The notes under the pieces were generated by a model. The model saw nothing but the letters and a program-made list of their open reading frames with translations. It had not been told where the DNA came from and did no database searches. A stretch of DNA of 26,313 nucleotides from the IMG/VR virus record IMGVR_UViG_3300017963_000691, positions 1-26,313 of that record. One strand, 5' to 3'. Each line of letters starts with the position of its first letter. Positions within the stretch are counted from its first letter, which is position 1. The position numbers and the translations under genes are program-made. This DNA is from a virus. Shown in pieces: positions 4,935 through 20,391 of this stretch.

Positions 4935-5798
4935 TTAAGCTTTTTTGAGGCAGGACAAATCGCCTGTCTCTTTTGCGTGTTTCATTTCGGCCTGAGAAAT
5001 CTGACCTGATACAGCAGCCTTGAACAAACGATTCCTGTCTTCGGCAGAAATCCTCTTGTTTTCAGTCTGCGAATCTTCAGATTTCGCCAAAGCCATTCCA
5101 GCGACCTTCGGCATTCCCGGCATTTGTGCGATTGACTTCATCAAATCGGAATGCTGGACGTATGCCTTTTCGATCTTTGTCACCTTGTCGATGACAAACT
5201 GCATGGACTTCGCCAACGAAACAAGAAGCTTGTCCCTGTTGGGATCGGCATTTTCAGCGAGCAATTCACCGAAAACCGCAACGCCCTCTTCCAATCTCTG
5301 GCAGGACTTTCCGATCTCTTCAACAGCGTCACCCATGCCATCGATGAATTCAGACGCATCATATTCTTCCATGTCGTCTTCTTCGTCTTCAAGCAATTCC
5401 GACTTCTTGCACATTTTCTTCATGTTCTTTTTCTTCTTCTTGAAGAATTTTGGCGGGGTATCGTCATCGTCATCGTCATCGTTGTAGTCGTCATCCGCCT
5501 TCATCGATGTGTACTGCTTGCTGTCAGGATACTGACCGCCTGACTTCTTGGGTGTCTCAGCCGGATCTTTTCCAGAATCCGTCAATGTTCCCCTTTTGTC
5601 TTTCTCTGCACTGAGGTCCGATGTTGGAGCGCCTTTCTGGGCCTTATTCAACAACGGTGCGACTGCATCAGTGATTCCCTTGATAATGGCCTTGCCTAGA
5701 TCTTGCTCTTCGACTTTTCCCTGAGATTCATTGTTTTCCTCAGTTGCAATCATCTGATCAAGCTCGTCGGTTGCCGCCTTGAAGATATTATCTCCCAT
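4935..5798 (-). CDS. Capsid assembly scaffold-like protein, 287 aa
   Basis: Highly charged, helix-rich protein directly between protease and major capsid gene, the usual place of a scaffold. The start is set at ATG 5798 because GGAGG lies 6 bases upstream; an upstream TTG in frame would include that SD. From about residue 93 a run of aspartates (DDYNDDDDDDD, coded by a GATGAC hexamer repeat at 5461-5481) is followed by TPPKFFKKKKKNMKKMCKK and then an acidic block. The C-terminal third (helices with AKSMQFVIDKVTKIEKAYV) looks like a coiled coil. The final basic residues could contact capsid protein. The sharp acid-to-base switch is unusual for a simple scaffold. Confidence 0.75.
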   Translation of the reverse strand: MGDNIFKAATDELDQMIATEENNESQGKVEEQDLGKAIIKGITDAVAPLLNKAQKGAPTSDLSAEKDKRGTLTDSGKDPAETPKKSGGQYPDSKQYTSMKADDDYNDDDDDDDTPPKFFKKKKKNMKKMCKKSELLEDEEDDMEEYDASEFIDGMGDAVEEIGKSCQRLEEGVAVFGELLAENADPNRDKLLVSLAKSMQFVIDKVTKIEKAYVQHSDLMKSIAQMPGMPKVAGMALAKSEDSQTENKRISAEDRNRLFKAAVSGQISQAEMKHAKETGDLSCLKKA

Positions 5799-5824: not shown

Positions 5825-6616
5825 TTATTTATCGAGATTGAATTTCCCGGATAAATACTTCTGTGAATATTTTTCTGCCACGGACTTGCTGTAACCCTTT
5901 TTAATAAGGTGTTTTACAAGTTTTTCCTTACTGACTGTTCTGTCGTCGCCACCCTCTAAATCCTCTTTCGTGAAATCCTTTACGGCTGGTACGGCAAGTG
6001 CCTTGTCCAACTTTTCGTAATATCTGTCACGCATGAGAAGAGGCGTTTTGCCCATCATGCTTTTAGCCAACATTGTGACTGTGCAATTGATGTTTTGCGG
6101 TCTGAATGAGTGTGCAATGTTATATATGTCTGCTTTTGCTACAAATCGGCCATCTCCTGATCGCTTTTGAATCTTGCCTTCGATGGAAAGGCAAAGGCCA
6201 CGGTTGAAACCGGCCTTTTTCAACTGGTTGTGCTGCTGGACCACCATGTCGGTTGTATAACCGTCAAAGATAGGAAGATTTGATATGATTTCGCCCTGAC
6301 AACGCCAGCCCGGCTCTTCAAACCAAGCTTTTTTCCCGGTGGGAACGCCTGTCATGGCATGGGGAATGTGATTCCAGTTGAATTCTCCAAATTCCTTGAA
6401 TGGAGCGAAGTTTAGTCCTTTTTGTATTACAATGTCGCCTTCCCTGTCCTTGTCAGGCGTAGATGCAGTTCCAATGAAGGGATAGACCTCGGTTTGTCCC
6501 TTCTTTTCCGCTTTTAAAACAGGTTCTCCAAAACCGATGTCGGATGCATCCACGAATGCATAGAAACTCCCGTCTGACCGGACATAGAACCCATATTCGT
6601 TTAATTCTTCATGCAT
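5825..6616 (-). CDS. Prohead maturation protease, 263 aa
   Basis: Serine protease of the prohead (HK97 gp4/U35-S78) type, which cuts scaffold and capsid delta regions inside the procapsid. The family's opening motif appears as GTASTPDKDREGDIV (residues 49-63, like 'GyaStfd.DrqGDvv'). The catalytic His region is FNWNHIPHAMTGVPTG (His83 or His86). The Ser region is GLCLSIEGKI (Ser144). The C-terminal 70 residues are basic and not part of the protease core; they may be a targeting tail. AGGAG stands 5 bases before ATG 6616, and a good sigma-70-like promoter lies in the 78-base gap upstream. Scaffold and major capsid genes follow. Confidence 0.85.
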   Translation of the reverse strand: MHEELNEYGFYVRSDGSFYAFVDASDIGFGEPVLKAEKKGQTEVYPFIGTASTPDKDREGDIVIQKGLNFAPFKEFGEFNWNHIPHAMTGVPTGKKAWFEEPGWRCQGEIISNLPIFDGYTTDMVVQQHNQLKKAGFNRGLCLSIEGKIQKRSGDGRFVAKADIYNIAHSFRPQNINCTVTMLAKSMMGKTPLLMRDRYYEKLDKALAVPAVKDFTKEDLEGGDDRTVSKEKLVKHLIKKGYSKSVAEKYSQKYLSGKFNLDK

Positions 6617-6694: not shown

Positions 6695-6916
6695 TTAAGC
6701 TTTCTTGGGGCCGATTTCAAAGGAATTTCTTGCCGGGACAATATCGTAATCCTGATCTCCAAAAACACCCAATTTCGGACAGCAGTGTTTGCACTCATGA
6801 TCCCCGCAAAGAGTCTCCCACACCCTGTTGACCTGAGCGGGTGTGAGAGGCATGTTTTTGGTTCTCACATAAACGGAAGTTCCATGATATGAATTATTCA
6901 ACTTTACCTGAACCAC
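6695..6916 (-). CDS. Small Cys-rich protein, 73 aa, GTG start inside repeat
   Basis: Unrecognised. The N-terminal strands (NSYHGTSVYVRTKN) are followed by a helix (LTPAQVNRVWETLCG) and a cysteine/histidine cluster CGDHECKHCC that could bind zinc. The start is taken as GTG 6916 because GGAGG lies 5 bases upstream; a TTG at 6901 is the alternative. Both the ribosome site and the start codon fall inside the last bases of the direct repeat, which also codes the C-terminus of the metallopeptidase. Before the esterase arrived, the two genes would have overlapped by 23 bases. A structural or protease-partner role is possible but not shown. Confidence 0.6.
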   Translation of the reverse strand: MVQVKLNNSYHGTSVYVRTKNMPLTPAQVNRVWETLCGDHECKHCCPKLGVFGDQDYDIVPARNSFEIGPKKA

Positions 6917-7020
6917 GTCTGCCTCCGAACAATATGAATTTGAACGCCTTCTTCACCTCATCCAGTGCCATGAGCTTGTCAAACAATGGAGTGATGTTTT
7001 TCATGCTTTCATTGTCTATC
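6894..7020 (-). pseudogene. Orphan 3' end of the metallopeptidase gene
   Basis: This stretch codes, in frame and ending in TAA at 6894, the last about 41 codons of the metallopeptidase now at 8067-9629. The orphan copy ends RRGSGKVE instead of SRGSGKVD. It has lost the rest of its gene because the esterase segment now lies between. It still carries the ribosome site for the 73-residue gene. An internal ATG could in principle yield a 36-residue peptide, but no good SD is seen. Confidence 0.8.
6904..7020 (-). repeat. Direct repeat copy A flanking the esterase (117 bp)
   Basis: Bases 6904-7020 match 8077-8193 in the same orientation, with one difference (T at 6918, G at 8091). The two copies are offset by exactly 1173 bases and bracket the esterase and its hairpin. 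Similarity stops sharply at 7020/7021 and fades just beyond 6904. High identity suggests a recent event or continuing gene conversion. Confidence 0.95.
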
Positions 7021-7026
7021 TTAGTT

Positions 7027-7050
7027 AACCCGCTAGCGGGGTAGCGGGTT
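7027..7050 (-). terminator. Hairpin after the esterase gene
   Basis: AACCCGCTA and TAGCGGGTT form a perfect 9-pair inverted repeat with a 6-base GC-rich loop, directly after the esterase stop and directly before repeat copy A. There is no long T-run on either side, so termination strength is uncertain. It may have come in with the cargo gene as its own terminator. Confidence 0.55.
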
Positions 7051-7055
7051 TTAGG

Positions 7056-8027
7056 TTATAGGTTCATGTAATGGATCAAAAATCCCATCATCTTTTTGAA
7101 TTCCGCAGTCTGACCTTGTGGCAGTCCAAAAATATTAGGACAATGACCTTTTCCAGCAATTGTGTGTAAGTAATTTACGGACCCTATAGAATCCAAGTAC
7201 TTCTTAGTATCTAAGGCTCCTTTATAAGGAACTAAATTATCTATTGTGTTATGAAAGTCAATGTAGGGAGCAATGCCTCTTGTTTTCAATTGGCTGAAGT
7301 CAGAAATAGTACCTGACAAGCCTATTCCTGCCGAGGCTTTTGATGAGTACCCACTATTGCCAGAACTACCTTCTCCCCAATTTTGGGCTAGTGTATCTAT
7401 GGTTGTTCTCCCGCCAGCAGAACAACCGAACAAACCAATCTTATTGGAATCGATTTTTAAAGCTGTTGCATTCTTTCTTATATAACGTATCGCAGATTTA
7501 GTGTCGTGTACGGGATGTTGGAAAAGCGGACTTGGTTTAAGCGACCAGCATTTCTTTTGCTTACATACCTCACGATTCCTACGATACTCAATACTCGCTA
7601 CAAAAAAACCTCGTTTTGCAAACAGTTCCGAAACCCAAGGTGCCCAACCAGTGGTCTTTGTGCTTGTTATGCTGTATCCTCCACCATGAATAACAACCAT
7701 AACAGGGCGCTTTTTACCTGCGTAAGGAAGACTGTAGGTATCAAGCAGAAGTGTTTCTTCTTTGCCAGAACCAAAGTTAGTTGCTGACCCGTAGCGGATA
7801 TCACTTTTCTTTATAACCTGCTTGTTGGAGTTAACACACCAAGAAAGGTTGGCAGGGCAATCAAAGGAAGGAGGATTTGTTGGATCAACAGGATCAACAG
7901 GATCTGTTGGAGTCTCGCTACAATCAACGCAATCAGAACAACAACAAGGTTGATACGAAGCTATTTTGGTAGCACAAGATACAAATAAAAATGCTATTAA
8001 AATTATCAAGGTTCTCAAGATTCTCAT
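7056..8027 (-). CDS. Secreted lipoprotein alpha/beta-hydrolase (esterase cargo), 323 aa
   Basis: Carboxyl-ester hydrolase of the HGGG-containing (BD-FAE/HSL-like) alpha/beta-hydrolase group. Residues 1-18 form a lipoprotein signal: basic start, hydrophobic LIILIAFLFVS, lipid-accepting Cys18. A Cys-rich patch (CCCSDCVDC) and a Pro-Val-Asp linker (about 41-52) would tether the enzyme to a membrane. The core shows the oxyanion motif HGGG at 114-117, nucleophile elbow GCSAGG at 201-206 (Ser203), an acidic region DFHNTIDN (Asp263 likely) and catalytic His295 in GKGHCPN. All key residues are present, so the enzyme looks active. The coding sequence is visibly AT-richer than its neighbours, and the protein has nothing to do with head assembly. 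It is bounded by the 117-bp repeats, so it is read as recently acquired cargo. The natural substrate (acyl or feruloyl ester, O-acetylated glycan, lipid) cannot be told. Confidence 0.9.
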   Translation of the reverse strand: MRILRTLIILIAFLFVSCATKIASYQPCCCSDCVDCSETPTDPVDPVDPTNPPSFDCPANLSWCVNSNKQVIKKSDIRYGSATNFGSGKEETLLLDTYSLPYAGKKRPVMVVIHGGGYSITSTKTTGWAPWVSELFAKRGFFVASIEYRRNREVCKQKKCWSLKPSPLFQHPVHDTKSAIRYIRKNATALKIDSNKIGLFGCSAGGRTTIDTLAQNWGEGSSGNSGYSSKASAGIGLSGTISDFSQLKTRGIAPYIDFHNTIDNLVPYKGALDTKKYLDSIGSVNYLHTIAGKGHCPNIFGLPQGQTAEFKKMMGFLIHYMNL

Positions 8028-8050
8028 AATGGTATCCTTTCATTTTTCAG

Positions 8051-8070
8051 TTAAACACAGTATTGTTTAA
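8051..8070. promoter_or_regulatory. 7-bp inverted repeat before the esterase
   Basis: TTAAACA and TGTTTAA form a perfect inverted repeat around a 6-base spacer, overlapping the metallopeptidase stop and lying 24 bases before the esterase start. AT-rich, spaced and symmetrical, it could be a repressor site for the esterase, or a scar of the insertion. No confident -35/-10 pair is seen in the 39-base gap. AAAGGAT serves as the esterase ribosome site. Confidence 0.35.
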
Positions 8071-9629
8071 TCTACCTTACCTGAACCACGGCTGCCTCCG
8101 AACAATATGAATTTGAACGCCTTCTTCACCTCATCCAGTGCCATGAGCTTGTCAAACAATGGAGTGATGTTTTTCATGCTTTCATTGTCTATCACTTTTT
8201 TACCCCATACTGTATTCCACGACGGAACTTTTGTTGCTATGTAGGTTTCAAAACATCTGGCAAATATTTCTGTGTCTTTTGTCAACCAATTTAAATATTT
8301 CATTCCAGAACGTCTACCTGATCTTGTGGAAACTTGAAGCTTTTGCTCTCTCTCCTTTCTGCCCTGTGGACTTTTTCTGTATTCCCTGACAATCCTGTCC
8401 CACAAGTTTCCCGCTTTTTCGTCCCTGTCGGCCTTGCCGACACCCTTCCAGTTACTTATTTTATCATCAAGAGCATGTCCCAATTCATGCGCCAATGACT
8501 CTTGGCTTCCCTGTTTCTTTGTTGACAGTCTTATGGTCTTCAAGTCGCATAAATAATCCGCCCTTGCTCCCCTCTTCGGTCCTCTTGAATCATGCACTTG
8601 AATTTTAACCTTGCCATGCAAATCAAGTTTTATTTTTTCGTTAAAATCGGCGAAGGCGCTGTCAAGAATTCTATCCCAATGTTCTTGGTTGTTTTTGGAA
8701 ATTTTCTTGTCATATATGATGTCTTGCATGCCAATCTTTTTAAGGCTTTCAGGCAATGACCTTGCTGTTTGACTCTCAGGCCCGGTAGGATCAGGTATAA
8801 CCTTGATTTTTCCAACATCAACCATTTTTTCCAATCCAGATTCGGTCAACAGCTCGTATTCCACAACACTGCCTTCGCCTCGTTTGTCATAAATTGTTCG
8901 GACAACTCGCAAGCCGGTTACAATTCCCTGGACACCTCCCATTTCAATGGTCACTCCAAACAGCTTTTTTGCTTCTTTTCTATCTTTGACTGTCATGCCG
9001 TCAAAAAAGAATTTAGCTTTTTCATATGTATATTTGCGAGAGGCTATACTCCTCAATGCCTTCTGGTAGTCGATTTCGTGCTCGAAAGAGAAAGAACTGG
9101 ACCTTTCCTTGCGTTTGACTGCAACCTTTTCCTTGGCTTCCTTCTTTTTCGATTCCTTCTTGACCTCTTTCTTGACCTCTTTCTTGGCCGGAATCTTTTT
9201 CTTCAGAGGCTTCTTTTCCCTTACGGGTTTCTCTTTGGCCTCGGCCTTTTTCTTTGCAGTCAATTCCTTGTGAAACTTCTTTGCGACCTTGATAGCCTCT
9301 TTTGAAAATTTTAGACATGATTTATCCTCATGCCAATCGTCAGCCTCGAAATATTTGTCCCAATATTTCTTGTCTGTCCTTATGTGATGCGCTGAACTCG
9401 GATGAATATCATTCTTGTGAAGATGGTCTACGTACCCGCTCACGGCCTCTTTGAAATTACTGACCAGTTCCTTGTGGTCATGTTTACCCATTGCCTTCAA
9501 ATGGTCAACGGCATGTTGGTGGATCATTTCCCTGTGCCACTTGTGGTCTGCGCCCTTGATGTATACTCCGTCTTTCCATTTTTTCCTTGTACCAACCAAC
9601 TCTGCTTTAGCTTTGTATATAAACATCAT
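8067..9629 (-). CDS. Zincin metallopeptidase with basic linker (polyvalent type), 520 aa
   Basis: The catalytic motif SLAHELGHALDD (HELGH at 381-385) is the HExxH signature of zinc metallopeptidases. A downstream helix, TEIFARCFETYIA (about 453-465), supplies a glutamate likely to be the third zinc ligand. This pairing is typical of metallopeptidase domains in phage 'large polyvalent proteins'. The N-terminus has a short KWKDGVYIKGADHKWHR module (17-33) shared in pattern with the dual-ART neighbour. Residues about 120-176 form a lysine-rich, histone-like linker (KKEVKKEVKKESKKKEAKEK). A beta-rich domain lies at about 220-280. A packaged, injected protease acting on host or capsid-internal proteins is the inference. 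The last 41 codons are part of the 117-bp repeat, so the gene's current 3' end may have come in with the esterase segment. Confidence 0.8.
   Translation of the reverse strand: MMFIYKAKAELVGTRKKWKDGVYIKGADHKWHREMIHQHAVDHLKAMGKHDHKELVSNFKEAVSGYVDHLHKNDIHPSSAHHIRTDKKYWDKYFEADDWHEDKSCLKFSKEAIKVAKKFHKELTAKKKAEAKEKPVREKKPLKKKIPAKKEVKKEVKKESKKKEAKEKVAVKRKERSSSFSFEHEIDYQKALRSIASRKYTYEKAKFFFDGMTVKDRKEAKKLFGVTIEMGGVQGIVTGLRVVRTIYDKRGEGSVVEYELLTESGLEKMVDVGKIKVIPDPTGPESQTARSLPESLKKIGMQDIIYDKKISKNNQEHWDRILDSAFADFNEKIKLDLHGKVKIQVHDSRGPKRGARADYLCDLKTIRLSTKKQGSQESLAHELGHALDDKISNWKGVGKADRDEKAGNLWDRIVREYRKSPQGRKEREQKLQVSTRSGRRSGMKYLNWLTKDTEIFARCFETYIATKVPSWNTVWGKKVIDNESMKNITPLFDKLMALDEVKKAFKFILFGGSRGSGKVD
8077..8193 (-). 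repeat. Direct repeat copy B (inside metallopeptidase 3' end)
   Basis: Partner of 6904-7020, 116 of 117 bases identical. It keeps the metallopeptidase frame intact from Ile480 into Lys518. The ribosome-site-like GGAGG and GTG of copy A are present here too, but the frame from that GTG stops after five codons. Copy B therefore cannot start the 73-residue protein. Confidence 0.95.
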
Positions 9630-9630
9630 T

Positions 9631-9807
9631 TCAGTTGCCCTCTGATTTGTTTATCAATCTATTTTGAAAGTTAGCAATTTTCTTGTATACGTTTTTCAGT
9701 TCTTTTATTCTGCTTGTATCGAAAACCGGGTAATTCAACTCACCGCCTTCTCTGAAAAACTCATTCCATGACGCTATGTTTACATCGGCTTGTGTAAATT
9801 TTCTCAT
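9631..9807 (-). CDS. Small protein between ART and metallopeptidase genes, 58 aa
   Basis: Unrecognised 58-residue protein with start ATG 9807, coupled to the dual-ART stop by TAATG and with AAAGG 8 bases upstream. An in-frame extension to 9828 has no SD. The sequence opens MRKFTQADVNIASWNEFFRE and ends in a helical, basic segment (IKELKNVYKKIANFQNRLIN). Its place between two putative effector genes makes an immunity, chaperone or packaging-tag partner conceivable, but nothing in the sequence proves it. Confidence 0.6.
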   Translation of the reverse strand: MRKFTQADVNIASWNEFFREGGELNYPVFDTSRIKELKNVYKKIANFQNRLINKSEGN

Positions 9808-11585
9808 TATTCCATACCTTTGATGCATTTCTTGTTTACTATGATATGTTCTCCAGCATTCTTGACAACATCAACTCCATTATGCTTCATGGTGTCAACA
9901 AGATGTTTATGAAATGCCTGTCTGTTTTTTTTCACAACATGCTCTATGTGTTCCTTGTTGTCGTCATAATATTTCGATGGATTTTTCCCTGCGTGCCTGT
10001 CATTCACCTTATAACCCATGTTTTTCAAAATATGGTGATAAGCATGATGATATTCATTGGAGCCGAAACCTCGTAAGTGGTCCATCGGCCTCTCCGTTCC
10101 TAAATTTGCTACCTTTGTCTTTTCATGAGTCTTTATTTTTATTTTAGACTCTTCTCCAGTAGATCGATAGGAATGATTCGGCTGAGTATAAACACCCGGC
10201 ATTACATGTTTGTTTTTACTCGCCTTAAAACCATTTTTTAATATTTGTTTTTTATTTTCTTCAGATGTTTCATGTATCAAATGCTTGTGATCAGGTTTTT
10301 CGATCATATCCTTATGCAATTTTATGTGTTTTATTGTCTTTTCGGCTTTATAGATGTAACGGCTTTTCCTTATGGTTTCAGGCACCTTGCCATTGTATTT
10401 CCTTATGGCATTTTTCATGTATGGTTTAACAGCACTCATATCAACCATACCTTCGTTGTGCATTGCCAACCTTGAACAACAATACAAGAACCACTTTGGA
10501 TGTTTTTTGTAGAAGTCGTCATCATTAATTTTTCCAAGTGCTTTGTATAATGGAACGTGTCTTGTAATCTTTGGTTGTGCAACCTTCTCAAACCATGTAT
10601 TGAATGCCTTCTCGAACCTTTTTATGGTTTCCATCTCAAAGCCCTTCGGCCCTGATTCATACGCCTTTTCAATGATGGCCTTGCACAATCCCTTGAAGCC
10701 CTTGTTGTCGATTGCATTAAGGTTTGCGCCCCTGCCGATGATCTCTCTGGATGCATACAACAAATGCCCAATAGGTTTCCCGGCCTTCGCAAATTGACCC
10801 GCAACCCAAGCATCCTTTTCCATTTCCGTTTTTTCAGAGGCATGTATTTTTGCGATTTGAGATTCCCACCTTGAAACCGGCTTGGGCTTGCCCATCTTGC
10901 GCCACTGCCCGGAACTCTCTTTTACATATGTTCCATCCTTGCGTTTTCTTATCGTTCCAATCGGGAAGTTCTTGGCTTTGGCTATATCCATTCTTTTTTT
11001 TGTAGTTTGTTTTCTGCTTATAGATTCATTCAAGGAAAATTGTTTTTTTGGATGGTAGTGTGATTCAACCTTATATGTATCGTTGATTACGCTTTTATGC
11101 GGATTGACTATCACCTCATGTTCGTTCTTGTATTTTGATTCGCCTATTTTATTTCCTTTTCCTTTCAGCCCTATCTGTTGCGGGACATGATGTATATCGT
11201 TTTCGTGAACCCATGCTGAAGTTGCATGCCCCTTGTATTTGTAACCCCAAGTATGTGCAACATGTGGATGAGGCGACCATGATGTATTCTTGTCATGCTC
11301 TACACTGTTTTTTTTCACCGAATTTCCATGTTCGTTTTCACTCATGCCCCTATGAAGCAGATAACTTTTTGTTCCATCTTCGTTTGTCTTTACTTTTGTC
11401 TTTTTAGCCAGTTTCATCAACGCCCTAGTTCTCGCATGACCTTTTATTCTTGGAACATCTCTCGTTGAACCTTCTGCTCCAAGTGTCCATTTTTCTATCT
11501 TTGATCTTCCCCTATACCCTTTCGGATTGAATTCAAGCTTCTTTTGTCTGGAACCTTTGAGCAAATTTATAATATACCTGAACAT
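9807..11585 (-). CDS. Protein with two ADP-ribosyltransferase-like domains, 592 aa
   Basis: Two ART-like regions can be read. The first (about 60-165) has YLLHRG (Arg79), then TSWSPHPHVAHTWG (Ser102), then NEHEVIVNP (Glu155-x-Glu157). This is the order R ... S-T-S ... E-x-E of arginine-type ADP-ribosyltransferases. The second (about 434-592) has LIHETS (His438), NGF, GVYT (Tyr466) and GEHIIVNKKCIKG (Glu579), the H-Y-E order of the PARP/diphtheria-toxin group. Between them lie a PIGTIRKRKDGTYVK module (208-222) and an unassigned helical region. ART enzymes transfer ADP-ribose from NAD+ to proteins or nucleic acids; phages inject such enzymes to reprogram hosts. Placement beside a gp7-like head protein supports packaging. 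Motif spacing is judged by eye, so the first domain is more secure than the second. Confidence 0.7.
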   Translation of the reverse strand: MFRYIINLLKGSRQKKLEFNPKGYRGRSKIEKWTLGAEGSTRDVPRIKGHARTRALMKLAKKTKVKTNEDGTKSYLLHRGMSENEHGNSVKKNSVEHDKNTSWSPHPHVAHTWGYKYKGHATSAWVHENDIHHVPQQIGLKGKGNKIGESKYKNEHEVIVNPHKSVINDTYKVESHYHPKKQFSLNESISRKQTTKKRMDIAKAKNFPIGTIRKRKDGTYVKESSGQWRKMGKPKPVSRWESQIAKIHASEKTEMEKDAWVAGQFAKAGKPIGHLLYASREIIGRGANLNAIDNKGFKGLCKAIIEKAYESGPKGFEMETIKRFEKAFNTWFEKVAQPKITRHVPLYKALGKINDDDFYKKHPKWFLYCCSRLAMHNEGMVDMSAVKPYMKNAIRKYNGKVPETIRKSRYIYKAEKTIKHIKLHKDMIEKPDHKHLIHETSEENKKQILKNGFKASKNKHVMPGVYTQPNHSYRSTGEESKIKIKTHEKTKVANLGTERPMDHLRGFGSNEYHHAYHHILKNMGYKVNDRHAGKNPSKYYDDNKEHIEHVVKKNRQAFHKHLVDTMKHNGVDVVKNAGEHIIVNKKCIKGME

Positions 11586-11586
11586 G

Positions 11587-12651
11587 TCATCCTTCCTTTT
11601 TCAAATCACCTTCAAACAGCATCTTTTTTGTTTCCGTCCTGACTGCACTTCTCACACTGTTAAGACCGATCTTTTGTCGGAATATTACAGCATTCTTTGG
11701 AATGTCTCCGGGTATGACCACTTTCCAGTCAGTCATGGTCTTGTACCCCATGAAGTCAGAAAGATGCTTCATGCCGGTGGGCCTCTCCCAATACTCAGGC
11801 ATGGCGACCACGGAAGGCATGATGTTTGCGACAACCGCCAAGTATTCGTCAAACGATTTTCGCTGCATCATCCTCAGTTTCCTGTCCTGCCCGGAAAACT
11901 CAAAAGGATTTATGTTGTAAAAAGACGAATTTCCAATTGCATTTGGATTCAAAAGAGTTATTATCCGGTCCCTAGGCTTGCCATGACCGTGTCTCGCCAC
12001 CTTATACCCGTTGATCTCGTCTACCAAAACATACGGAATGCACCTCAATACATATCTCACAATATAACGAGCGGTCACACTTCCAAGCCCGACCCATTTG
12101 TTGTTTCCCGTTGATATCATGTATTCCGGCGCATCATCCTTCATTGACCGGCTGACCAGTCCAATAGGATACAAGGCCGCCTTGAATATGTCCGGGGAAC
12201 TGACTGGTTTCCAAGGAGAACACTTGCAGCGTGGATGTACCGCACCCTTGAGATTGTCTGGAATCATTCGCAAGACATAATGTTTCGGTTTTCCCGGCAT
12301 GCCGAAAGCAAGGCAACACTCAGGGCAACAGTCTCTGGTGTCCCGGTATACGGCTGCATTTTGGCCATACATGTCTTCAATTAAATCCAAAGATGCCTTG
12401 GCATTGCTGTCTGTTACCTCTGTCGTGGCAACCATTCCCCAGTCACGCCAAGGTTCTCTCTTGACCTTGGCCTCTTTCTTCAGCTTGCGCTCTATCTGCT
12501 TGGTCGTCTTGCCCTGTTTGATAGATTCAGAGACTACTTTCTTGACCTTTGCCCGTCTTCGTTTGCCTATACTGACCATCTTTTCGGCTGCGCTTTCGTC
12601 GGCCTGTTTCGATGCCAACACGTTTTTTAAAGACTTGGCAACAAACTTCAT
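11587..12651 (-). CDS. SPP1 gp7/Mu F-like minor head protein, 354 aa
   Basis: Head-morphogenesis protein that normally binds the portal and is enclosed in or injected from the capsid. The signature is a cysteine-bearing block RDTRDCCPECCLAFG followed by GAVHPRCKCSPW (Cys108/109, Cys112/113, His139, Cys142, Cys144), which equals the 'D..vCp.C......HP.CRC' end of the Mu F/gp7 domain. The N-terminal 100 residues are lysine/arginine-rich and helical. The C-terminal 190 residues are an additional domain with aromatic and His-Gly motifs (KVARHGHGKPRDRI) that I cannot name. ATG 12651 is chosen because AAGGAG lies 5 bases upstream and the helicase stop overlaps it (TGATG). Upstream in-frame TTG codons lack an SD. 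Confidence 0.8.
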   Translation of the reverse strand: MKFVAKSLKNVLASKQADESAAEKMVSIGKRRRAKVKKVVSESIKQGKTTKQIERKLKKEAKVKREPWRDWGMVATTEVTDSNAKASLDLIEDMYGQNAAVYRDTRDCCPECCLAFGMPGKPKHYVLRMIPDNLKGAVHPRCKCSPWKPVSSPDIFKAALYPIGLVSRSMKDDAPEYMISTGNNKWVGLGSVTARYIVRYVLRCIPYVLVDEINGYKVARHGHGKPRDRIITLLNPNAIGNSSFYNINPFEFSGQDRKLRMMQRKSFDEYLAVVANIMPSVVAMPEYWERPTGMKHLSDFMGYKTMTDWKVVIPGDIPKNAVIFRQKIGLNSVRSAVRTETKKMLFEGDLKKEG

Positions 12652-15600
12652 CACTTCTCCTTCAACTTGTGCTGGTGTCGATTTTTCATTGTCTCCCAAC
12701 CACCTTCATGTTCCATCATTTTTGAAACGGCATGGTTGACCATGTTCTTGTAATTCCTTGATGGAGCCCCGCCATCCTCTTCGGCCCACTTCTTCCAGAA
12801 AGCTTCGACAACAGGATGCGTCAACGGCCTGTTGTTGTGATCTCTCTCAAATCGTGTTTTCTTCTTTTTGAGAAGGGAAAGCAATTCCTCGGTGTCTCCC
12901 TGCAGTATGGGCATGGCCTGTTCTTTGTAGGGAACCCCAACTTCGTCCCAAGAAGACATCAGCGCATCGTGGTGATCGAGCTTGCTGTGAGGCGTGTGTT
13001 TCTTGCCGCTTGACCATCTGTTGACCACATCATGCAGGAATTTCTTTTCGTCGTCATCGTGTTTCTCTTCAGCTTCGTGCTGATACTCGTTGTGATATGA
13101 CTCCCAAGTATCCTTATGCACATTTTTACCCATATGGCCCTTCAACTTGTGCCTTCCGGCGAGCTCCACAGCCTCCGGCAGATATGCATCCCAGTGGTCG
13201 TCGTCATAGGTCATTTCATCTCCAAAGTGCTTTCGCAGCGCATCCCGCATATGACCTGCAAGGGAATTCTTTTCATCGTCCGTCAGTTTCCCCTTTTCCT
13301 CTTTGCCTGTGAATTCGGTATGGTATGGGCCGATGCCGTGTTTCATTTCAGCGCCCTTGCCGAAACCCTTTCCCCCAGACCTCTTGAAAGGTTTGTCGCC
13401 ATAGTGTTTTCTCAGTTCCCTGTTTTCTTCCGCTTGGAAGTTGAGAATGTCCAAACCCTTTTGATGGTACTTGGGAACGATGTCGGAACCCCTGTTGCTT
13501 TCAATATTAGAAAGGGACAACTTGAACGCAACCAATGTCGGATCTTCAGGAAAATCCGATATCACATGCATGTTTTGATGATACTTGCTCATCATCCGGC
13601 AATACTTTGTAACATCCACGCCCTGATCGACTATGCCCAAATGAATCTTTGCCGGTTTGTCTTGACCGAAGCGCCATATCCTTGCATATGACTGCTCTTG
13701 GTTTCCGGGACTGAAATGGTGGTCATACCTATACATGCCGTTGGCAATTTGCAGGTTCATGCCCTCTTTGATTGATGCATCTACAGCGACAATAATTTTT
13801 GGCCCGTCAGGATCTTTTGCAAACGAATCCAGTTTTCCCATTTGCGAGGCGTCAAAATACATGGCGTTTTTCTTGTGTTCTTCAGGCATGTGCTTCATGA
13901 TGTGTGCGGCAGACATGCGCCTTTGGCAAAACACTATGTATTTTCCGTTTTTCTTGTCGGCAAAGTGCTCATCCAGCTTTTTGTAAACATCCTTGGCCTT
14001 TGGCGAAACAACGCCCTTCAATGCCCTGATCGCCTTTCTTACATGTGGTTTGAAACGATCAAGATATTGTTTTGCTTGGGCCATGTCATCATCGGTTTCG
14101 ATTGAACCACCGGCCTTTTTGCCTTGTCTCAAGGTCTTGAAACTTTCCTCAACAAGATCAGCCATCATGTCTGGATAGTCCGTGATGCCCCCCAAGGTGT
14201 CCAGACCACCGACTATCTTTGGATTGCCCTGCAACAATTCGTCTGCATCATCCTCCGCCAGCGCCTTTTTCAACTTGGGATTTTTTTCTGCCTCTTCCCT
14301 CAACTGTTCCACAAAATTAGTTATAGCCAATTCGTTTACAGACTTGAGTTCCTTGTCCATTTCAACAAAACTCAATCTTTCGTCACGTTTGGGCAGATTG
14401 TGAAGCCATGCGGAACGCCTGAGAGATATCATTCCCATGTCGTCAAGGTCATCTCTCAAATTTTTCAGTCCCTGCTCGTCCCAATGAACACCGCCCTTGG
14501 TTTCGGTATGGCCATACTCTTTTTTGAATTGATCTTCTGTCATGTCCCACGAAGGATGCAGCCATTTCATCTGTCCCAATACATCCATCGGATTGTTGCT
14601 CAGAAACGTTCCCGATGCGACACGCCTGTATTTTGCAGTAGTCAAATACTTCATGGCCTTGAATCGGTTTGTCTTTGTGTTCTTGATGTTGTGAGCCTCA
14701 TCCAAGGCGCAATAATCAAAACCAGCCGATGAAAGCGTCCTGCCACGTTCAAATCTTTTTTCTTCATCCTCATAAGCTTTTTTTGTTGTCGGATCTTTGG
14801 ACTGATAGGAAAAAACATCATACGAAGCCATGAAAATAGTGTTTTCAGGTGCCTTGTGGATGTCTTCGACCATCTTTTGAGCGTCACCGTTGTAATGGTC
14901 CTTAAGTGTCTGGTTGGTTATCTTGAATACGTTCACTTTTGCATCGGTGTATTCGTTTATTACTTTAGATGCATTCTGATCGAGTGTCGCAGCGGGAACC
15001 ACTATCAAGGGCTTCTTGACACTGCCCTTCTGCATGAGGTTCAATGCGTCTGCCGGTAAAAGCAATCCCTTTCCACCGCCCATGTCCACATCGATGACCG
15101 CCTTGGACAGAACATCCAGTTTGGCCAGCACCTCTGCCTGATGACCGAAAAAACTAATGTCGTTTGATATGGCATTTATTACTGGACAGTCTTTTGGTCC
15201 CTTGGCCTTCGCAACATGCACTTCTTCTCTTTCCTGAGCAAGAGAATCCAATGCGTCATCCGAATGTTCAATGGCCATCTTCGCCATTGCGTGGTCGTGA
15301 TGGTCTGCATCCTCGCTCTTCGGATCATGCGTGTCCACCACATGATGCAGATAGTCGTTGACTTGCCTGTGTCCTGACATTGCAGCAAGACTGGATGATT
15401 TGCCATATGTCTTTTCAAGATGCTTGGCCAACGGTTTTATGTGTTTTTTCCTGAATTCTTCATCATGTTTTTTTATGCCGAAATGTTTCATGGCCATTTT
15501 TCTAGCCATCTCATAAGTATCAACATTCTGGTTCAAGTGTGCATGGATTTGTTCCTTGCTCAACTCATGGACCTTTTTGTCATGATCGTGTTTTACATGT

Positions 15601-15845
15601 TCAAAACGGCTCTTAACTTTATTGTTCTTTTTGTTTATCGTCGTTGATTTTTCATCAACATGTACGACCTTTCCGCTCCATTTTTCCGGTTCTCTCTTTG
15701 CCGCATCCCTCTTGTCCCAATGTTGATCTATATAGATTATGGAACCGTTGGGAAGCTTTCGGTAATGAGGCTTGACCATCCTTGCCTTTTTGATCGATTC
15801 GAGTTTCTTTTTTCTCGAACGCCTTGAAGCATATGTAAATATCAT
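12651..15845 (-). CDS. SNF2-type helicase/ATPase, 1064 aa
   Basis: Superfamily-2 DNA translocase of SNF2 type. Motif I reads DMGGGKGLL (about 254-262), motif II is ALDEAH (382-385 for DEAH), motif III is ASGTFLSNNP, motif V is IKEGMNLQ, and motif VI is QSYARIWRFGQDKP with both arginines. The P-loop has Gly in place of the usual Thr/Ser after Lys, an odd change for an active ATPase. The first 240 residues are basic and His-rich and carry a RKLPNGSIIYIDQHWDKRDA module similar in spirit to the KDG modules of the neighbours. The C-terminal 300 residues are His/Lys/Asp-rich and unassigned. ATG 15845 has GGAGGT 6 bases upstream and overlaps the previous stop (ATGA). Likely a packaged polyvalent protein that remodels or protects incoming DNA. 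Confidence 0.85.
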   Translation of the reverse strand: MIFTYASRRSRKKKLESIKKARMVKPHYRKLPNGSIIYIDQHWDKRDAAKREPEKWSGKVVHVDEKSTTINKKNNKVKSRFEHVKHDHDKKVHELSKEQIHAHLNQNVDTYEMARKMAMKHFGIKKHDEEFRKKHIKPLAKHLEKTYGKSSSLAAMSGHRQVNDYLHHVVDTHDPKSEDADHHDHAMAKMAIEHSDDALDSLAQEREEVHVAKAKGPKDCPVINAISNDISFFGHQAEVLAKLDVLSKAVIDVDMGGGKGLLLPADALNLMQKGSVKKPLIVVPAATLDQNASKVINEYTDAKVNVFKITNQTLKDHYNGDAQKMVEDIHKAPENTIFMASYDVFSYQSKDPTTKKAYEDEEKRFERGRTLSSAGFDYCALDEAHNIKNTKTNRFKAMKYLTTAKYRRVASGTFLSNNPMDVLGQMKWLHPSWDMTEDQFKKEYGHTETKGGVHWDEQGLKNLRDDLDDMGMISLRRSAWLHNLPKRDERLSFVEMDKELKSVNELAITNFVEQLREEAEKNPKLKKALAEDDADELLQGNPKIVGGLDTLGGITDYPDMMADLVEESFKTLRQGKKAGGSIETDDDMAQAKQYLDRFKPHVRKAIRALKGVVSPKAKDVYKKLDEHFADKKNGKYIVFCQRRMSAAHIMKHMPEEHKKNAMYFDASQMGKLDSFAKDPDGPKIIVAVDASIKEGMNLQIANGMYRYDHHFSPGNQEQSYARIWRFGQDKPAKIHLGIVDQGVDVTKYCRMMSKYHQNMHVISDFPEDPTLVAFKLSLSNIESNRGSDIVPKYHQKGLDILNFQAEENRELRKHYGDKPFKRSGGKGFGKGAEMKHGIGPYHTEFTGKEEKGKLTDDEKNSLAGHMRDALRKHFGDEMTYDDDHWDAYLPEAVELAGRHKLKGHMGKNVHKDTWESYHNEYQHEAEEKHDDDEKKFLHDVVNRWSSGKKHTPHSKLDHHDALMSSWDEVGVPYKEQAMPILQGDTEELLSLLKKKKTRFERDHNNRPLTHPVVEAFWKKWAEEDGGAPSRNYKNMVNHAVSKMMEHEGGWETMKNRHQHKLKEK

Positions 15846-16156
15846 TCCGGCACCTCCGTTGACACCCGCAGTTCTCCTTGAGAGCCAATGTAAAACCACT
15901 GCTGGTCGAGGCCCATGTCTACTGCATCACGAAAGCTTTCTGCATCATAGTCTTCATGCATCTTGTCGATCACATATACAAACGCCTCGGCCTCTACCAT
16001 GCTCATTGGAGACAGTTGATGCCTTACAATCAAGGGATCTTGATGGTGGTCCGTGTTGCTTCCCTGTATGGAGGCATTGACCTGATCGTCCCTGTCACTT
16101 TCCATTTCCTCCGGAGACTTGGCCTTTTTTTTCTTCTTGAACCAATTTAATTTCAA
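15842..16156 (-). CDS. Small charged protein before the helicase gene, 104 aa
   Basis: Unrecognised. The start is TTG 16156, supported by AGGAGGT 5-6 bases upstream and by the absence of a suitable ATG. The N-terminus is strongly basic (WFKKKKKAKSPEEME). The C-terminal half, MVEAEAFVYVIDKMHEDYDA then WFYIGSQGELRV, looks like a small alpha/beta domain. It overlaps the helicase start by 4 bases (ATGA), so the two are probably made together. Confidence 0.6.
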   Translation of the reverse strand: MKLNWFKKKKKAKSPEEMESDRDDQVNASIQGSNTDHHQDPLIVRHQLSPMSMVEAEAFVYVIDKMHEDYDAESFRDAVDMGLDQQWFYIGSQGELRVSTEVPE

Positions 16157-16165
16157 AGCGACCTC

Positions 16166-16567
16166 CTAATTCACTATCTCTATGGCAAGACTTTCAAGAT
16201 TCATGGGCCATCTGTATACACCGTTGTCGTCAAAGGTGATTACGAATGTTCCATAAAACAAACCCTTTTCAGCGGTATCCGTCGATGCCCACTTGTAACG
16301 GACTATGCCGTTTTCCTCATCGACTATTTCCACCTCTCCGTTGACGGAAGCCTCAATCGGCTCACGACCGCACTTTTTAAGCTCGAATTCAACCTTGTAT
16401 GCATCGGTCAAATCCAATACATTCGCCTGATTGACGTTGTTTGAATCCTCGCAGGAATACCCCTGATCGATGCTAACATTTCTTGGTATGGTCCCGTCCT
16501 TGGTTATCTGCACTTCAAGATATGGCACTGTCGAACCAACCCTGATTTGAAAATTGCTTACAAACAT
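16166..16567 (-). CDS. BppU-like beta-sandwich virion protein, 133 aa
   Basis: The sequence runs through an Ig-like series: YLEVQITKDGTIPRNVSI, YKVEFELKK, ASVNGEVEIVDEENGIVRYKW, then KGLFYGTFVITFDDNGVYRWP. This pattern (strand, 'v.F.l', 'G.v.y.W', 'G.y..eF', 'g...r.P') is that of the N-terminal domain of phage baseplate upper proteins and related receptor-side proteins. It sits between the cold-shock gene and the helicase rather than in a tail cluster. A head- or neck-attached version is likely. The start overlaps the cold-shock stop (TAATG). Confidence 0.6.
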   Translation of the reverse strand: MFVSNFQIRVGSTVPYLEVQITKDGTIPRNVSIDQGYSCEDSNNVNQANVLDLTDAYKVEFELKKCGREPIEASVNGEVEIVDEENGIVRYKWASTDTAEKGLFYGTFVITFDDNGVYRWPMNLESLAIEIVN

Positions 16568-16827
16568 TATTCACTGTCCTCGCATGCTTCGATTATTTTC
16601 ACTTCCTTGGTACAAACGCCCTTGTGGTTCTTGCCGATGGAAAACTCAACGAGATCGCCCTTGGCAAGCGTCTTGTACCCCCTGTGGACTATATAATGGA
16701 AATGGACAAACAATTCCTTCCCTTCAGCAACGGAATCGTCATCCGGCTTGACAAAACCTATTCCCTTTTTGGGATCAAACCACATGACCCTTCCTGTATA
16801 TCTAGGTTGATTTCGGCTATCTCGCAT
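16567..16827 (-). CDS. Cold-shock domain protein, 86 aa
   Basis: CspA-type nucleic-acid-binding OB-fold. The opening GRVMWFDPKKGIGFVKP (12-28) gives the 'G.VkWF...kGfGFI' signature with RNP1. LFVHFHYI (39-46) is RNP2. GDLVEFSIG and GVCTKEVKII complete the five strands. Start ATG 16827 has AAGG nearby and overlaps the portal end by 11 bases; an in-frame GTG at 16887 is less likely. Cold-shock proteins melt RNA structure and can steady messenger RNA. Lying between portal and other structural genes, this one may aid late messages or bind packaged nucleic acid. Gly replaces the usual aromatic in KGIGF at one surface position (Ile for Phe), a mild deviation. Confidence 0.85.
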   Translation of the reverse strand: MRDSRNQPRYTGRVMWFDPKKGIGFVKPDDDSVAEGKELFVHFHYIVHRGYKTLAKGDLVEFSIGKNHKGVCTKEVKIIEACEDSE

Positions 16828-18637
16828 TTCGCCTTGTTTCCTTTTCATCTTGTTCTGACCACGGCGGGTTTCTGATAAATCCTTCACGACCGGCCTTCTC
16901 CTTGGAGGTTTTCTTTTTCTTCTTCTTTTTCACTTTCCTTATCTTGGATTGCTCGTTTGATTTTACATTTTGATCTTCGTCGTCGCCTCTGTTTTCATCC
17001 TCTGGCGGTTCTTCGTCCTGTGAAGGCGGTTGTTCGTCACCCTGCATCGGTTGCTGCTGCATCTGTTGTTGTTGCATCTGCATCTGTTGTTCCTGCATCT
17101 GCTGCTGTTGCTCCATCTGTTTTGTCTGCATGATGAATGTATTGTCGATGACCTCTCCCTCTTCTCCTCCAATGGGATCAAGAGCCATCATCTGCCTTCT
17201 TTCATCGACTTTGGTAATGGATGCATACTTTTCCATGATCTCAAGCTGTTCAAGCTCGTTTTCCCCATTGTCCCATTCAAACATCATGTTTTCATCAATA
17301 CGTTCCAAGATCGGATCGAACATGGAAGTCTTCAGATGCAGCAATAGGCATTCATGCCCTTGTTCTTGGGCCATGTTGATCTGTTTGGTCTGACTGGCCT
17401 GTTGCAGTCCACCGGCATTGTCTCCGGCTCTCGGCGCTTCGTTTATTTCTGATGGATGCATTCTGAACACCGCACAGCCGAGATTGGTCAGTTTCTGGAT
17501 GTATATGTCAAACAGCATGTCCCGGTGATTTTGCTTCAGATTGATTACATTTACATCATCTGCGCCTCCGGGAAGAGCAATCAGAGGCAGTCGGTACATT
17601 CCGGGAACACCTGTGAGATTACCCTGGAAGATCTGTTCTATGTCCTTCACATGCTGGTCGTCATAATTGCCCTTCAGGGCCACCATTGACTCCGCCATTG
17701 AACCGAATTCAAAATAGCGGCTGTTGGCACTCATGGCCATTATCTCTGAAAGGATGATGAATATGGCCCTCTCAGTGAGCGACCTTGGATACCCCGCCTG
17801 TCTGACATCCGTTTGTTTCCCGAAACTGCCTATCAACAACTCATCGTGCCTGAATGCAGCGGCTGGTCTTCCGTACAAGAGATAGATGTATTCGGTCTTT
17901 TCGTCGATGTCCAACTTGTACCTGTCACTCGCCATCTGGAGCACCCGCCTGTATGCAGACCAGTTCGTTCCCCAGTCCTTGGGCATGTCCTTCTCTCTTG
18001 TAGTGAGAAATTTCAATACATTGAATGTGGGAAGCACATTTGCCCCGTCGATTGCGCCAAACGCCCTTGGAGTCCTGTTTACATCAAGCCCAAGCTCGAT
18101 CACCGGCCTGTTGATGACCAGATAGTCTTCTGTGACTGCCGAAAGAAAGTTGCTGAATGTTGGTTCCACATCCCGATAAACAGTTCCCCCTTCCTCTTGG
18201 TCCCAAAATACACGCCACGGTTTCTCAAACATCTTCTCGGTTTCCCGGCACATTTCCTTGAAACCTTCGGGAACAGTGAAGTGGGGATCATGCTCTCTCT
18301 TATGCACGATCTTGAAACCCACCTGATTCTTTTTGGTAAGTCTGGTAGGTCTGCTGTATCTCATGGTCTGATGCAATCTTGTACTGATGATTGCAGACAG
18401 GACGGGTGATCTCCATCCAATCTCCCTCAGAACGCTGAAATTGAGTGTTCCCCGGAATGCCCTTGTATTGGAATATCCTTTGGGATACCCCCCGAACATG
18501 CCGTTTGCAAGCGCCTGTTCCGGCAGTCTCGGTGCAGTCGGTGCAATGCCCAGTGCCATTGCCCTCAATACATCCGCAAAGCCCACTGAATTCTTTTCTG
18601 CGTTCTTGTTTGTTTGAGTCTTGTTGTTCTCAGGCAT
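16817..18637 (-). CDS. Portal protein with Gln/Met-rich tail, 606 aa
   Basis: Portal of the head: a ring through which DNA is packed and ejected. Assignment rests on place directly after the terminase (TAATG overlap), length, and the core with REIGWRSPVLSAIISTRLHQ, the wing/stem area DYLVINRPVIELGLD, and a clip/stem run ILSEIMAMSANSRYFEFGSMAESM. Residues about 505-530 are almost only Gln and Met. They are followed by an acidic Pro-rich segment and then KIRKVKKKKKKKTSK, ending GFIRNPPWSEQDE. This low-complexity C-terminal tail would lie inside the capsid and is not part of typical portals. The last 11 bases overlap the cold-shock gene. Confidence 0.85.
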   Translation of the reverse strand: MPENNKTQTNKNAEKNSVGFADVLRAMALGIAPTAPRLPEQALANGMFGGYPKGYSNTRAFRGTLNFSVLREIGWRSPVLSAIISTRLHQTMRYSRPTRLTKKNQVGFKIVHKREHDPHFTVPEGFKEMCRETEKMFEKPWRVFWDQEEGGTVYRDVEPTFSNFLSAVTEDYLVINRPVIELGLDVNRTPRAFGAIDGANVLPTFNVLKFLTTREKDMPKDWGTNWSAYRRVLQMASDRYKLDIDEKTEYIYLLYGRPAAAFRHDELLIGSFGKQTDVRQAGYPRSLTERAIFIILSEIMAMSANSRYFEFGSMAESMVALKGNYDDQHVKDIEQIFQGNLTGVPGMYRLPLIALPGGADDVNVINLKQNHRDMLFDIYIQKLTNLGCAVFRMHPSEINEAPRAGDNAGGLQQASQTKQINMAQEQGHECLLLHLKTSMFDPILERIDENMMFEWDNGENELEQLEIMEKYASITKVDERRQMMALDPIGGEEGEVIDNTFIMQTKQMEQQQQMQEQQMQMQQQQMQQQPMQGDEQPPSQDEEPPEDENRGDDEDQNVKSNEQSKIRKVKKKKKKKTSKEKAGREGFIRNPPWSEQDEKETRRNAR

Positions 18638-20391
18638 TAATCTTCCCTCTTTATCAATTGTTCAGATTTCTCAAACATTCGCTTGTAATGTTCGATCATT
18701 GTCTTGGATGCATTAGGCGGTATGGGCAGGTCTTTGAAGTTTTCCGGCTTTTCGGTGTTGATCTGCAATGCATTTCCGCTTCCCATGCTTATGCCCCTCA
18801 CTATGAATTCTCCACGGCATGCATAGGCCAACAGGCAATATACTTCTGCATGGAAATAATGATCGGGATCTCCAAGCCAGTCGTATCGGTTCCTTTCCTC
18901 ATCGTAGATCCTTGTAGGCGTTTTCATCTGGTCGTAATAATCGCCTCCGTCAAGGCTCTGGGCATTCCTTGGATTGATGAATCGCCTCTGCACGAACCTG
19001 CTTTGCACCTTGTCCATCAACATTGTCCTGTCTGCACTCACTATTCTTTCGTTTTCATCCTTGGTCACTTCCTTCAGACCATTCACATATCTGCATATCC
19101 ATCCACGCCCGATGTGCTTGTCTGCATACTTTTTTGCATTCCTTGTTTCCGGCATGGCATCGATAACGTACCCAACTATGTTAAACCGTTTGAACAGTGC
19201 ATCCAACTCTTCAAATTCCCGCACGATTCCAGCAAATACCAGTCTGAAACGCTCTCCCTCGCATATCTGCCTTACAACCACGTTGAGTTTCTTGCCGACA
19301 TCCACACCCATTACACATGGCTCTTTGCAGTCAATGGGCATGACGTAATCCTCCTTGCATGCATTGAGAATTTCATCCGTGAGTTTTGCGCCCTTTCCTG
19401 CAAATGTTTTTCCCAGCATGGAATTGTAAAAGACCTGCATGGTGGTGTCATCGTCCAAACCAAGTTGGAACTTTTCCCACATCTTGGATATCTTGACGAA
19501 TTTCGACAGCATCTGATGTATCAGATAACCATGCGTTTGTTTGTTTTCGTATGCAGGAACCCAACACGATTGCATGGTGTACCTGTTGATAGGCTTGTGG
19601 CATTTTATGCAATATACATTGATGTCCCGGTCGCATCCGATATCCCATTCCTTGTCTCTCAGCATGTAGGAATAGTCGTCCATCTGCCTGACCACGTTCT
19701 TGAACCAGTCCATAGGCTGGTAGGTGTTGCAGTGATGGCATTTGACAAAGAATTCCCTTTGGTCCGACATCATGTATCGTCTGTTTATGCCGAATTTATC
19801 TACAGTAGGATTTGATGCTTCATATTTGAGCTTATACGGTGATGCAGTCAAACGGTCGTCGGCCTTTTCATAATTGGCAAGATCAAACCTGTCTATTTCG
19901 TCGGCAAGAATGAGATCGAGCGGCTTCTCAATGAAAGTAGTGGCCGAATTCGACCCTGCATAAAAAATAGAACCCATTCCAAAGTGTTTCAAAGACCGGG
20001 ATGCAGCGACATTTGCACCATGCACCAACATATTCCTGTAGTGCGGCACCGTTTCAAACAGCTTGTCTATCCGGTTTGCCACAAACAGGTTCCTGAGGTC
20101 GGTTGTAGGCAACACATACATGCACTGCAATCCCTTTTCAGCCCATGCAAATGATGCAACGATCAGGAATTCAGATTTCCCGGTCTGAACCGATGACTGC
20201 AAAACGACCTCTGGAGCATCATCTTTGTATATTTCAAACAAATACGGCATGTCATGGAAGGACATCTTCTCGCCACGGATATTATGGTGATGAGACATTG
20301 CGTATTTCAAGCGGGGATATTTTTCGAGCTGTTTGTCAAGCTTTGCTATCGTCGCCAGATATAGCTTTTCCAGATCCTCTCTGTCTGTCAT
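18637..20391 (-). CDS. terL: Terminase large subunit (GpA-like), 584 aa
   Basis: DNA-packaging motor: ATPase plus nuclease. The Walker A variant is SSVQTGKSE (Lys72, Ser73). Walker B is DLILADEIDR (Asp164, Glu165). A zinc ribbon CHHC at 218-221 with CIKC at 261-264 lies between the two halves, as in lambda gpA-type terminases. The nuclease half shows GVDVG (Asp364), VIDAMPETR (Asp411) and a late acidic motif GDPDHYFHAE near 516-525. ATG 20391 has AGAGGA 9 bases upstream although it lies inside the end of the upstream zinc-ribbon gene. All catalytic positions seem intact. Confidence 0.92.
   Translation of the reverse strand: MTDREDLEKLYLATIAKLDKQLEKYPRLKYAMSHHHNIRGEKMSFHDMPYLFEIYKDDAPEVVLQSSVQTGKSEFLIVASFAWAEKGLQCMYVLPTTDLRNLFVANRIDKLFETVPHYRNMLVHGANVAASRSLKHFGMGSIFYAGSNSATTFIEKPLDLILADEIDRFDLANYEKADDRLTASPYKLKYEASNPTVDKFGINRRYMMSDQREFFVKCHHCNTYQPMDWFKNVVRQMDDYSYMLRDKEWDIGCDRDINVYCIKCHKPINRYTMQSCWVPAYENKQTHGYLIHQMLSKFVKISKMWEKFQLGLDDDTTMQVFYNSMLGKTFAGKGAKLTDEILNACKEDYVMPIDCKEPCVMGVDVGKKLNVVVRQICEGERFRLVFAGIVREFEELDALFKRFNIVGYVIDAMPETRNAKKYADKHIGRGWICRYVNGLKEVTKDENERIVSADRTMLMDKVQSRFVQRRFINPRNAQSLDGGDYYDQMKTPTRIYDEERNRYDWLGDPDHYFHAEVYCLLAYACRGEFIVRGISMGSGNALQINTEKPENFKDLPIPPNASKTMIEHYKRMFEKSEQLIKRED

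Follow-up and report, generated by a model that had tools for sequence, protein, structure and literature searches.

We analysed a stretch of viral DNA of 26,313 bases (the window), taken from IMG/VR record IMGVR_UViG_3300017963_000691. It is a fragment of a tailed phage, and its minus strand carries a head-gene operon with genes for a terminase, a portal, an SNF2-type helicase, a protease, a scaffold-like protein and a capsid. Within this operon a gene for a predicted alpha/beta-hydrolase, here called the esterase, is bracketed by duplicate 3′ ends of the gene upstream of it, which encodes a putative metallopeptidase. All window features located below are on the minus strand.

Direct repeats around the esterase gene

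The two direct repeats, copy A at 6894–7020 and copy B at 8067–8193, are 127 nt long, agree at 123 of the 127 positions and lie 1173 nt apart from start to start. Their 117-bp core (6904–7020 and 8077–8193) contains a sole mismatch, at 6918/8091 (116/117 identical), while three further mismatches fall just outside the core at 6903/8076, 6900/8073 and 6897/8070. Read along the minus strand, the first 102 nt are identical and form the longest exact repeat, and the homology reaches the very end of the stop codon of the metallopeptidase gene. Identity of this degree far exceeds what chance would give.

The metallopeptidase gene, an open reading frame (ORF) running from 9629 to 8067, encodes 520 amino acids (aa). 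It is completed by copy B, which supplies the last 42 codons and the stop codon and gives the protein the end SRGSGKVD. Copy A is a second peptidase 3′ end that would end RRGSGKVE. Joining the flanks with 1173 bp removed produced a whole metallopeptidase gene with the latter ending. A first-pass annotation of this DNA had reported the 117-bp repeats on either side of a lipoprotein alpha/beta-hydrolase, had held that copy B completes the metallopeptidase gene and had predicted the product of recombination between the copies. Our analysis reproduced each of these points and lengthened the repeat to 127 nt.

The same structure is present in a second contig, IMGVR_UViG_3300017971_000425 (43,886 bases; the sister contig). 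It matched window positions 1–24334 with a single mismatch, at 6490 and thus outside the repeats, and contains both repeat copies and the esterase in the same arrangement. The two contigs possibly come from the same sample; the sample number of the sister contig is one that we take to belong to a study of hypersaline lake sediment.

The name metallopeptidase refers to a HELGH zinc-peptidase motif, recognized by eye, and to weak family matches: CLCA_X (E = 6.8e-5) and LPD1 (E = 0.0011), both below their cut-offs, and a phrog_4415 peptidase (E = 0.0067). A related contig, L120, has a 1638-aa ORF, part of which aligns with the peptidase domain and the C-terminal helix. This helix is encoded by the repeat, and its alignment partner in the L120 homologue is the end of the peptidase domain; the protein end supplied by copy B is therefore probably needed.

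Origin and family of the esterase

The esterase gene (7056–8027) encodes 323 aa. The protein matched the Pfam family BD-FAE (E = 8e-20, 71.7 bits against a cut-off of 26.8) as well as related alpha/beta-hydrolase families. It contains HGGG and GCSAGG motifs, and Ser204, Asp263 and His295 align with three homologues. By profile and catalytic residues alike, it is a predicted member of the BD-FAE/alpha-beta-hydrolase family and resembles carbohydrate esterases; among solved structures, the closest in sequence are acetyl xylan and carbohydrate esterases (about 1e-9). The N-terminus is lipoprotein-like, with a lipobox recognized by eye. Upstream of the gene is a 39-nt leader (8028–8066) with an AAGGA Shine-Dalgarno sequence, in which no promoter-like site was found. 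After the gene comes a hairpin (7027–7050; −14.2 kcal/mol, z −4.0) that has no T-run on the minus strand. Its role as a terminator is uncertain, and that reading was dropped on scans that did not exceed shuffled sequences.

By composition the esterase gene is foreign to the phage. Its GC content at third codon positions (GC3), 0.327, is the lowest of 15 genes, the others ranging from 0.394 to 0.562. Its codon fit, −0.046, is again the lowest of the 15; the other 14 genes score between 0.003 and 0.070, and 18 core windows of esterase length all score at least 0.020. The dinucleotide distance of the gene is 0.165, compared with a maximum of 0.154 among core windows of 972 bp.

Bacterial relatives of the esterase are distant and came from at least 464 of 590 stretches, the best 80 of which were kept. 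Extraction of ORFs from these 80 loci gave 70 ORFs, the two best loci, L037 and L038, being lost. The best four of the 80 relatives are metagenome-assembled genomes of Bacteroidota with 30–35% identity. The family is broad, and therefore these matches name no donor.

Only two ORFs of at least 80 aa lie within the 1173-bp unit: the esterase and an antisense ORF of 93 aa that has no Pfam match. A Pfam scan of 48 proteins, a subset of the ORFs of both contigs, gave no integrase or transposase family at E ≤ 0.01, as the first-pass annotation had stated for the integrase, and no site-specific recombinase in or beside the 1173-bp unit.

A putative start site in copy A

Copy A also holds the start region of the next ORF, a possible small gene of 73 codons (6695–6916) that is rich in cysteine. 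The ORF would overlap the peptidase frame of copy A by 23 nt, comparable to the 22-nt overlap of the neighbouring upstream gene pair X592 and S65. A GGAGG Shine-Dalgarno sequence in copy A (6922–6926) is followed by a 5-nt spacer and a GTG codon (6916–6914); a 5-mer Shine-Dalgarno core is found ahead of 4.4% of the 1,630 start codons of this strand. The equivalent start in copy B hits a stop after five codons. No homologue of the 73-codon ORF was found in the profile libraries and sequence collections tried. We think it likely, though not proven, that the start of this putative ORF is preserved in copy A. Copy A had been described as the original peptidase 3′ end, now orphaned. A second peptidase 3′ end it is; since the putative GGAGG/GTG start lies within it, it is probably of use and no mere orphan.

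A published precedent in mycobacteriophage LRRHood

The first-pass annotation had also supposed that this way of loading cargo might be undescribed. As far as searches of the open-access literature show, however, the layout has already been seen once in print. According to the accessible text of PMC3029335 (Pope et al. 2011), mycobacteriophage LRRHood carries a 1.35-kb segment with a stolen repressor between 29-bp direct repeats that duplicate the 3′ terminus of the gene upstream, and close relatives have one copy. The authors prefer acquisition of the segment, allow for loss and call the event not reconstructable.

We located the LRRHood repeats, which duplicate the 3′ terminus of gene 42, at 5043–5071 and 6399–6427 of the fetched locus (L117). 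In phage RoMag, the 2,846 bases examined contain one copy; it stands at the 3′ end of gene 44, and gene 45 is annotated as starting immediately downstream. Phage DLane matches LRRHood query bases 438–1698 at 97.8% and has 0 copies of the repeat in the 3,267 bases examined. Because the empty site of RoMag has one copy and the cargo-like stretch of DLane none, the LRRHood repeats are recipient DNA.

In LRRHood as in the window, cargo is bracketed by copies of an upstream neighbour's 3′ end, and the second copy stands before the downstream gene. The accessible text of PMC3029335 adds that the LRRHood cargo came from elsewhere, that its phage group has no integrase and that a cargo gene is suggested to act against superinfection. 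The two cases differ in the length of the repeat (127 nt in the window, 29 bp in LRRHood) and in the cargo, which in LRRHood comprises four genes. For LRRHood, donor-like phages and an empty site have been identified, and RoMag is a cargo-free relative with a single copy; for the window neither was found, and no relative of the window with the metallopeptidase gene and without the cargo was found.

At the left junction of LRRHood (L117 5072–5138), the cargo is preceded by 46 nt without assignment and an extra 21 nt of recipient DNA, a detail to which the accessible text of PMC3029335 makes no reference.

Proposed route of entry

We favour, with moderate confidence, the explanation that the esterase is a recent foreign capture at a gene overlap, acquired by staggered non-homologous recombination, and that the repeat is the scar of this event. 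We infer an insertion from the repeats, the foreign composition, the layout of both neighbouring genes, the second contig and the LRRHood case. The point of entry would have been the overlap between the metallopeptidase gene and the small ORF that follows it, which places the esterase in a moron-like position. Non-homologous recombination would have joined the incoming DNA to a right-hand phage arm starting about 127 nt upstream of the end of the left-hand arm. Such a stagger would duplicate the overlap zone in such a way that copy B keeps the C-terminus of the peptidase and copy A keeps the Shine-Dalgarno sequence and the start of the small ORF. With the overlap zone duplicated, foreign DNA would thus enter without breaking either gene. 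The long repeat would have been kept because shorter versions would damage a neighbour, both neighbours needing the duplicate. The cargo should then be open to deletion by homologous recombination between copy A and copy B, a passive consequence that calls for no dedicated mechanism.

If capture by stagger is correct, it bears on how genes are gained in phage operons, which are so packed that genes overlap. Duplication of an overlap zone would be a simple and harmless route of entry, and it would leave a visible scar. The signature can be searched for: cargo between two in-frame 3′ ends of a neighbouring gene, the second copy carrying the start of the next gene. A genome-wide search for it could measure the frequency of such gene gain in phages.

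Several observations weigh against capture by stagger. The four differences between the repeat copies, at offsets 102, 117, 120 and 123 of 127, all fall within the last 25 nt (P = 0.0012 by chance, post hoc) and all at third positions of the peptidase frame (P = 0.012, post hoc). Changed third positions make up 4 of 9 from offset 102 on, compared with 0 of 33 before it (P = 0.0011, post hoc). A simple stagger predicts no such mosaic, which it leaves unexplained; the mosaic may reflect a diverged donor allele, or a freed copy B changing rapidly under coding constraint. The left junction of LRRHood is more complex than a single stagger. The codon score of the 73-codon ORF is 0.077, a value reached by 41% of 27 spurious ORFs, and 10% of 48 real windows score as low. 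The short CspA gene has a dinucleotide distance of 0.174, above that of the esterase, and the total GC of the esterase gene, 0.403, is within the core range. Scans for promoter- and terminator-like consensus sequences did not exceed shuffles (8 promoters, 8.1 expected). As no esterase-free relative with the metallopeptidase was found, the single ancestral copy remains inferred.

Alternative explanations

The third-position mosaic makes homologous transfer the main rival of capture by stagger. A related phage carrying both the metallopeptidase and the esterase would have recombined inside the gene end, so that only the right-hand junction would be non-homologous and the diverged last codons of copy B would be those of the donor. 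Identity over 102 nt followed by third-position changes fits this course of events. In addition, the nine bases past the second mismatch match at 7 of 9 positions, a level reached by 78 of the 26,304 9-mers of the window. On the other hand, there are four differences only, and rapid change in a freed copy could yield the same pattern. Nor was a donor found, since the metallopeptidase query returned the sister contig only in IMG/VR and one match, of 29%, in phage records. We consider homologous transfer unlikely, though worth keeping in view.

The 1173-bp unit could instead be a cassette without an integrase, made up of the gene end, the esterase and the hairpin, that enters by a single crossover at a matching gene end and leaves repeatedly by recombination between the copies. 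As a minimal cassette with a recoded end of the target gene, it would enter related phages at co-infection and be lost again between the copies. The geometry is what speaks for a dedicated cassette, which is possible: the unit is exactly 1173 bp long, the gene end that it restores is slightly recoded, and recombination would leave the gene whole. However, the unit was seen neither in free or tandem form nor at a second location, the esterase query in IMG/VR giving the sister contig only; the 48 proteins scanned gave no integrase or transposase match; and a scan of the 648 kb of viral loci described below, which are redundant, showed no other gene-end repeats around cargo besides LRRHood. In the assembled contigs and relatives examined, no sign of active loading or unloading was found. 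We regard both the mobile behaviour and the recoded minimal unit as improbable. If true, a cassette that targets overlap zones would load cargo into dense operons without damage, and gene-end duplication would be a general mode of loading.

It is also conceivable, but quite improbable, that the structure arose stepwise, by a tandem duplication of the gene end with later entry of the esterase between the copies, or by shrinkage of a longer duplication. The extra partial recipient copy at the left junction of LRRHood suggests that duplication and insertion can be separate steps, but no cargo-free intermediate carrying both copies was found. An assembly artefact is very improbable: both contigs are metagenome assemblies, but the structure recurs in the second contig with one base different, and the longest exact repeat, 102 nt, should be resolvable by ordinary assembly.

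Comparison with other systems and a scan for similar repeats

Integrative elements replace the 3′ end of their target gene without disrupting it and are flanked by direct repeats, and their usual attachment site (att) core is much shorter than 127 nt. The insertion in the window resembles them in its intact target gene, the replacement of the 3′ end and the direct repeats. It differs in the length of its repeat and in the lack of any integrase family among the 48 window and sister-contig proteins scanned.

Surface-acting morons block superinfection. By analogy, a lipoprotein esterase might modify polysaccharide at the surface and in this way prevent superinfection. With phage morons as described in the accessible text of PMC3029335, the window shares extra ORF DNA within a conserved operon, foreign composition and a probable host-surface protein; the long flanking repeats fall outside the definition given there. 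The foreign composition is seen in GC3 and codon fit at the extremes of the 15 genes and in a dinucleotide distance above that of the core windows. As for a promoter and terminator of its own, the unit has the strong hairpin without a T-run, and the consensus scans stayed at the level of shuffles.

In cyanophage S-PM2, ORFan regions are gained and lost by illegitimate recombination and mispackaging (PMC4503421, accessible text). There too, phage genomes try out and lose cargo with no integrase involved; unlike the window, no repeats are described, and the main text does not contain the word ‘repeat’. No comparable case appears in the accessible text of PMC3706429, PMC2248197, PMC3556154 or PMC5883640. 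We class the window as moron-like cargo with a duplicated gene end, and as a second, longer example beside LRRHood.

The first-pass annotation had proposed a search for other cargo genes between duplicates of a neighbouring 3′ end. We scanned all fetched loci, a sample that does not allow an estimate of frequency, for direct repeats of 25–600 nt that were at least 90% identical and 300–5000 nt apart. The loci counted as viral add up to 648 kb, with redundancy and one plasmid stretch (L036) included. Thirteen rows were obtained, of which nine were the window/sister repeat in overlapping loci, one was LRRHood and one each came from L016, L123 and L081. On inspection, the L016 and L123 repeats were not gene-end duplications around cargo. 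The search thus returned LRRHood, fetched as a known case, and no further example, the L081 row being left uninspected. The L123 repeats are 48 bp long (96%) and lie between ORFs of a 375-kb contig, at 20088–20135 and 21051–21098; they are promoter-like in look.

Relatives and the surrounding genes

No relative of the window at the DNA level was found in phage records. Queries of IMG/VR with the metallopeptidase, the esterase and the 73-codon ORF each gave the sister contig as the sole match. Deeper relatives were obtained by alignment of the terminase, portal, capsid and helicase; the capsid alignment gave no relative among bacterial genomes. Six relatives (G003, G005, G011, L030, L031 and L120) hold the region upstream of the protease.

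The esterase is absent from all six by tblastn. The 73-codon ORF was not found in them either, weak matches of 9–28 aa in G005 and L031 (E 0.12 to 0.85) being disregarded. A peptidase domain is present in L120 only, at another position, and short N-terminal metallopeptidase matches occur in G003, G005 and G011. In none of the six is there a site bordered by the metallopeptidase gene and the 73-codon ORF; these relatives lack the module as a whole and are too distant to stand for the empty site of the esterase.

The downstream border of the region is the head maturation protease gene (5825–6616; phrog_1028, E = 6e-22), which has homologues in the relatives. On the other side lies S65, a small gene of 65 aa (9631–9828). 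Because the protease gene comes directly after an S65-like gene in three of the six relatives (G003, L030 and L120), the slot that in the window holds the metallopeptidase, the esterase and the small ORF is variable. Across seven related contigs, the stretch from the MuF-like gene to the protease (window 8067–12699) varies, with shuffled MuF, X592-like, S65-like and peptidase modules.

The 1638-aa ORF of L120 (IMGVR_UViG_3300017963_000225, 14592–19508) combines its peptidase domain with repeats of a short N-terminal motif of the GTxxKWxDGxYxK type, which also starts several window proteins. The ORF product looks like a polyvalent protein, in line with those of phages, in which zincin-like metallopeptidases are a theme according to the accessible text of PMC5512222.

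Other features

Past the end of the window, the sister contig continues with tail-like genes that were named by eye; Pfam gave 0 matches for the three of their proteins tried. Two further ideas were dropped: a known RNA element, for which Rfam gave no match, and an insertion associated with a transfer RNA (tRNA) gene, as the window contains no tRNA. Towards the end of the window, a 135-aa ORF (24269–24676) matched the Acb2/Tad1 hairpin domain with 28.2 bits, the Pfam cut-off being 27, and is possibly a sponge against nucleotide-signalling phage defence.

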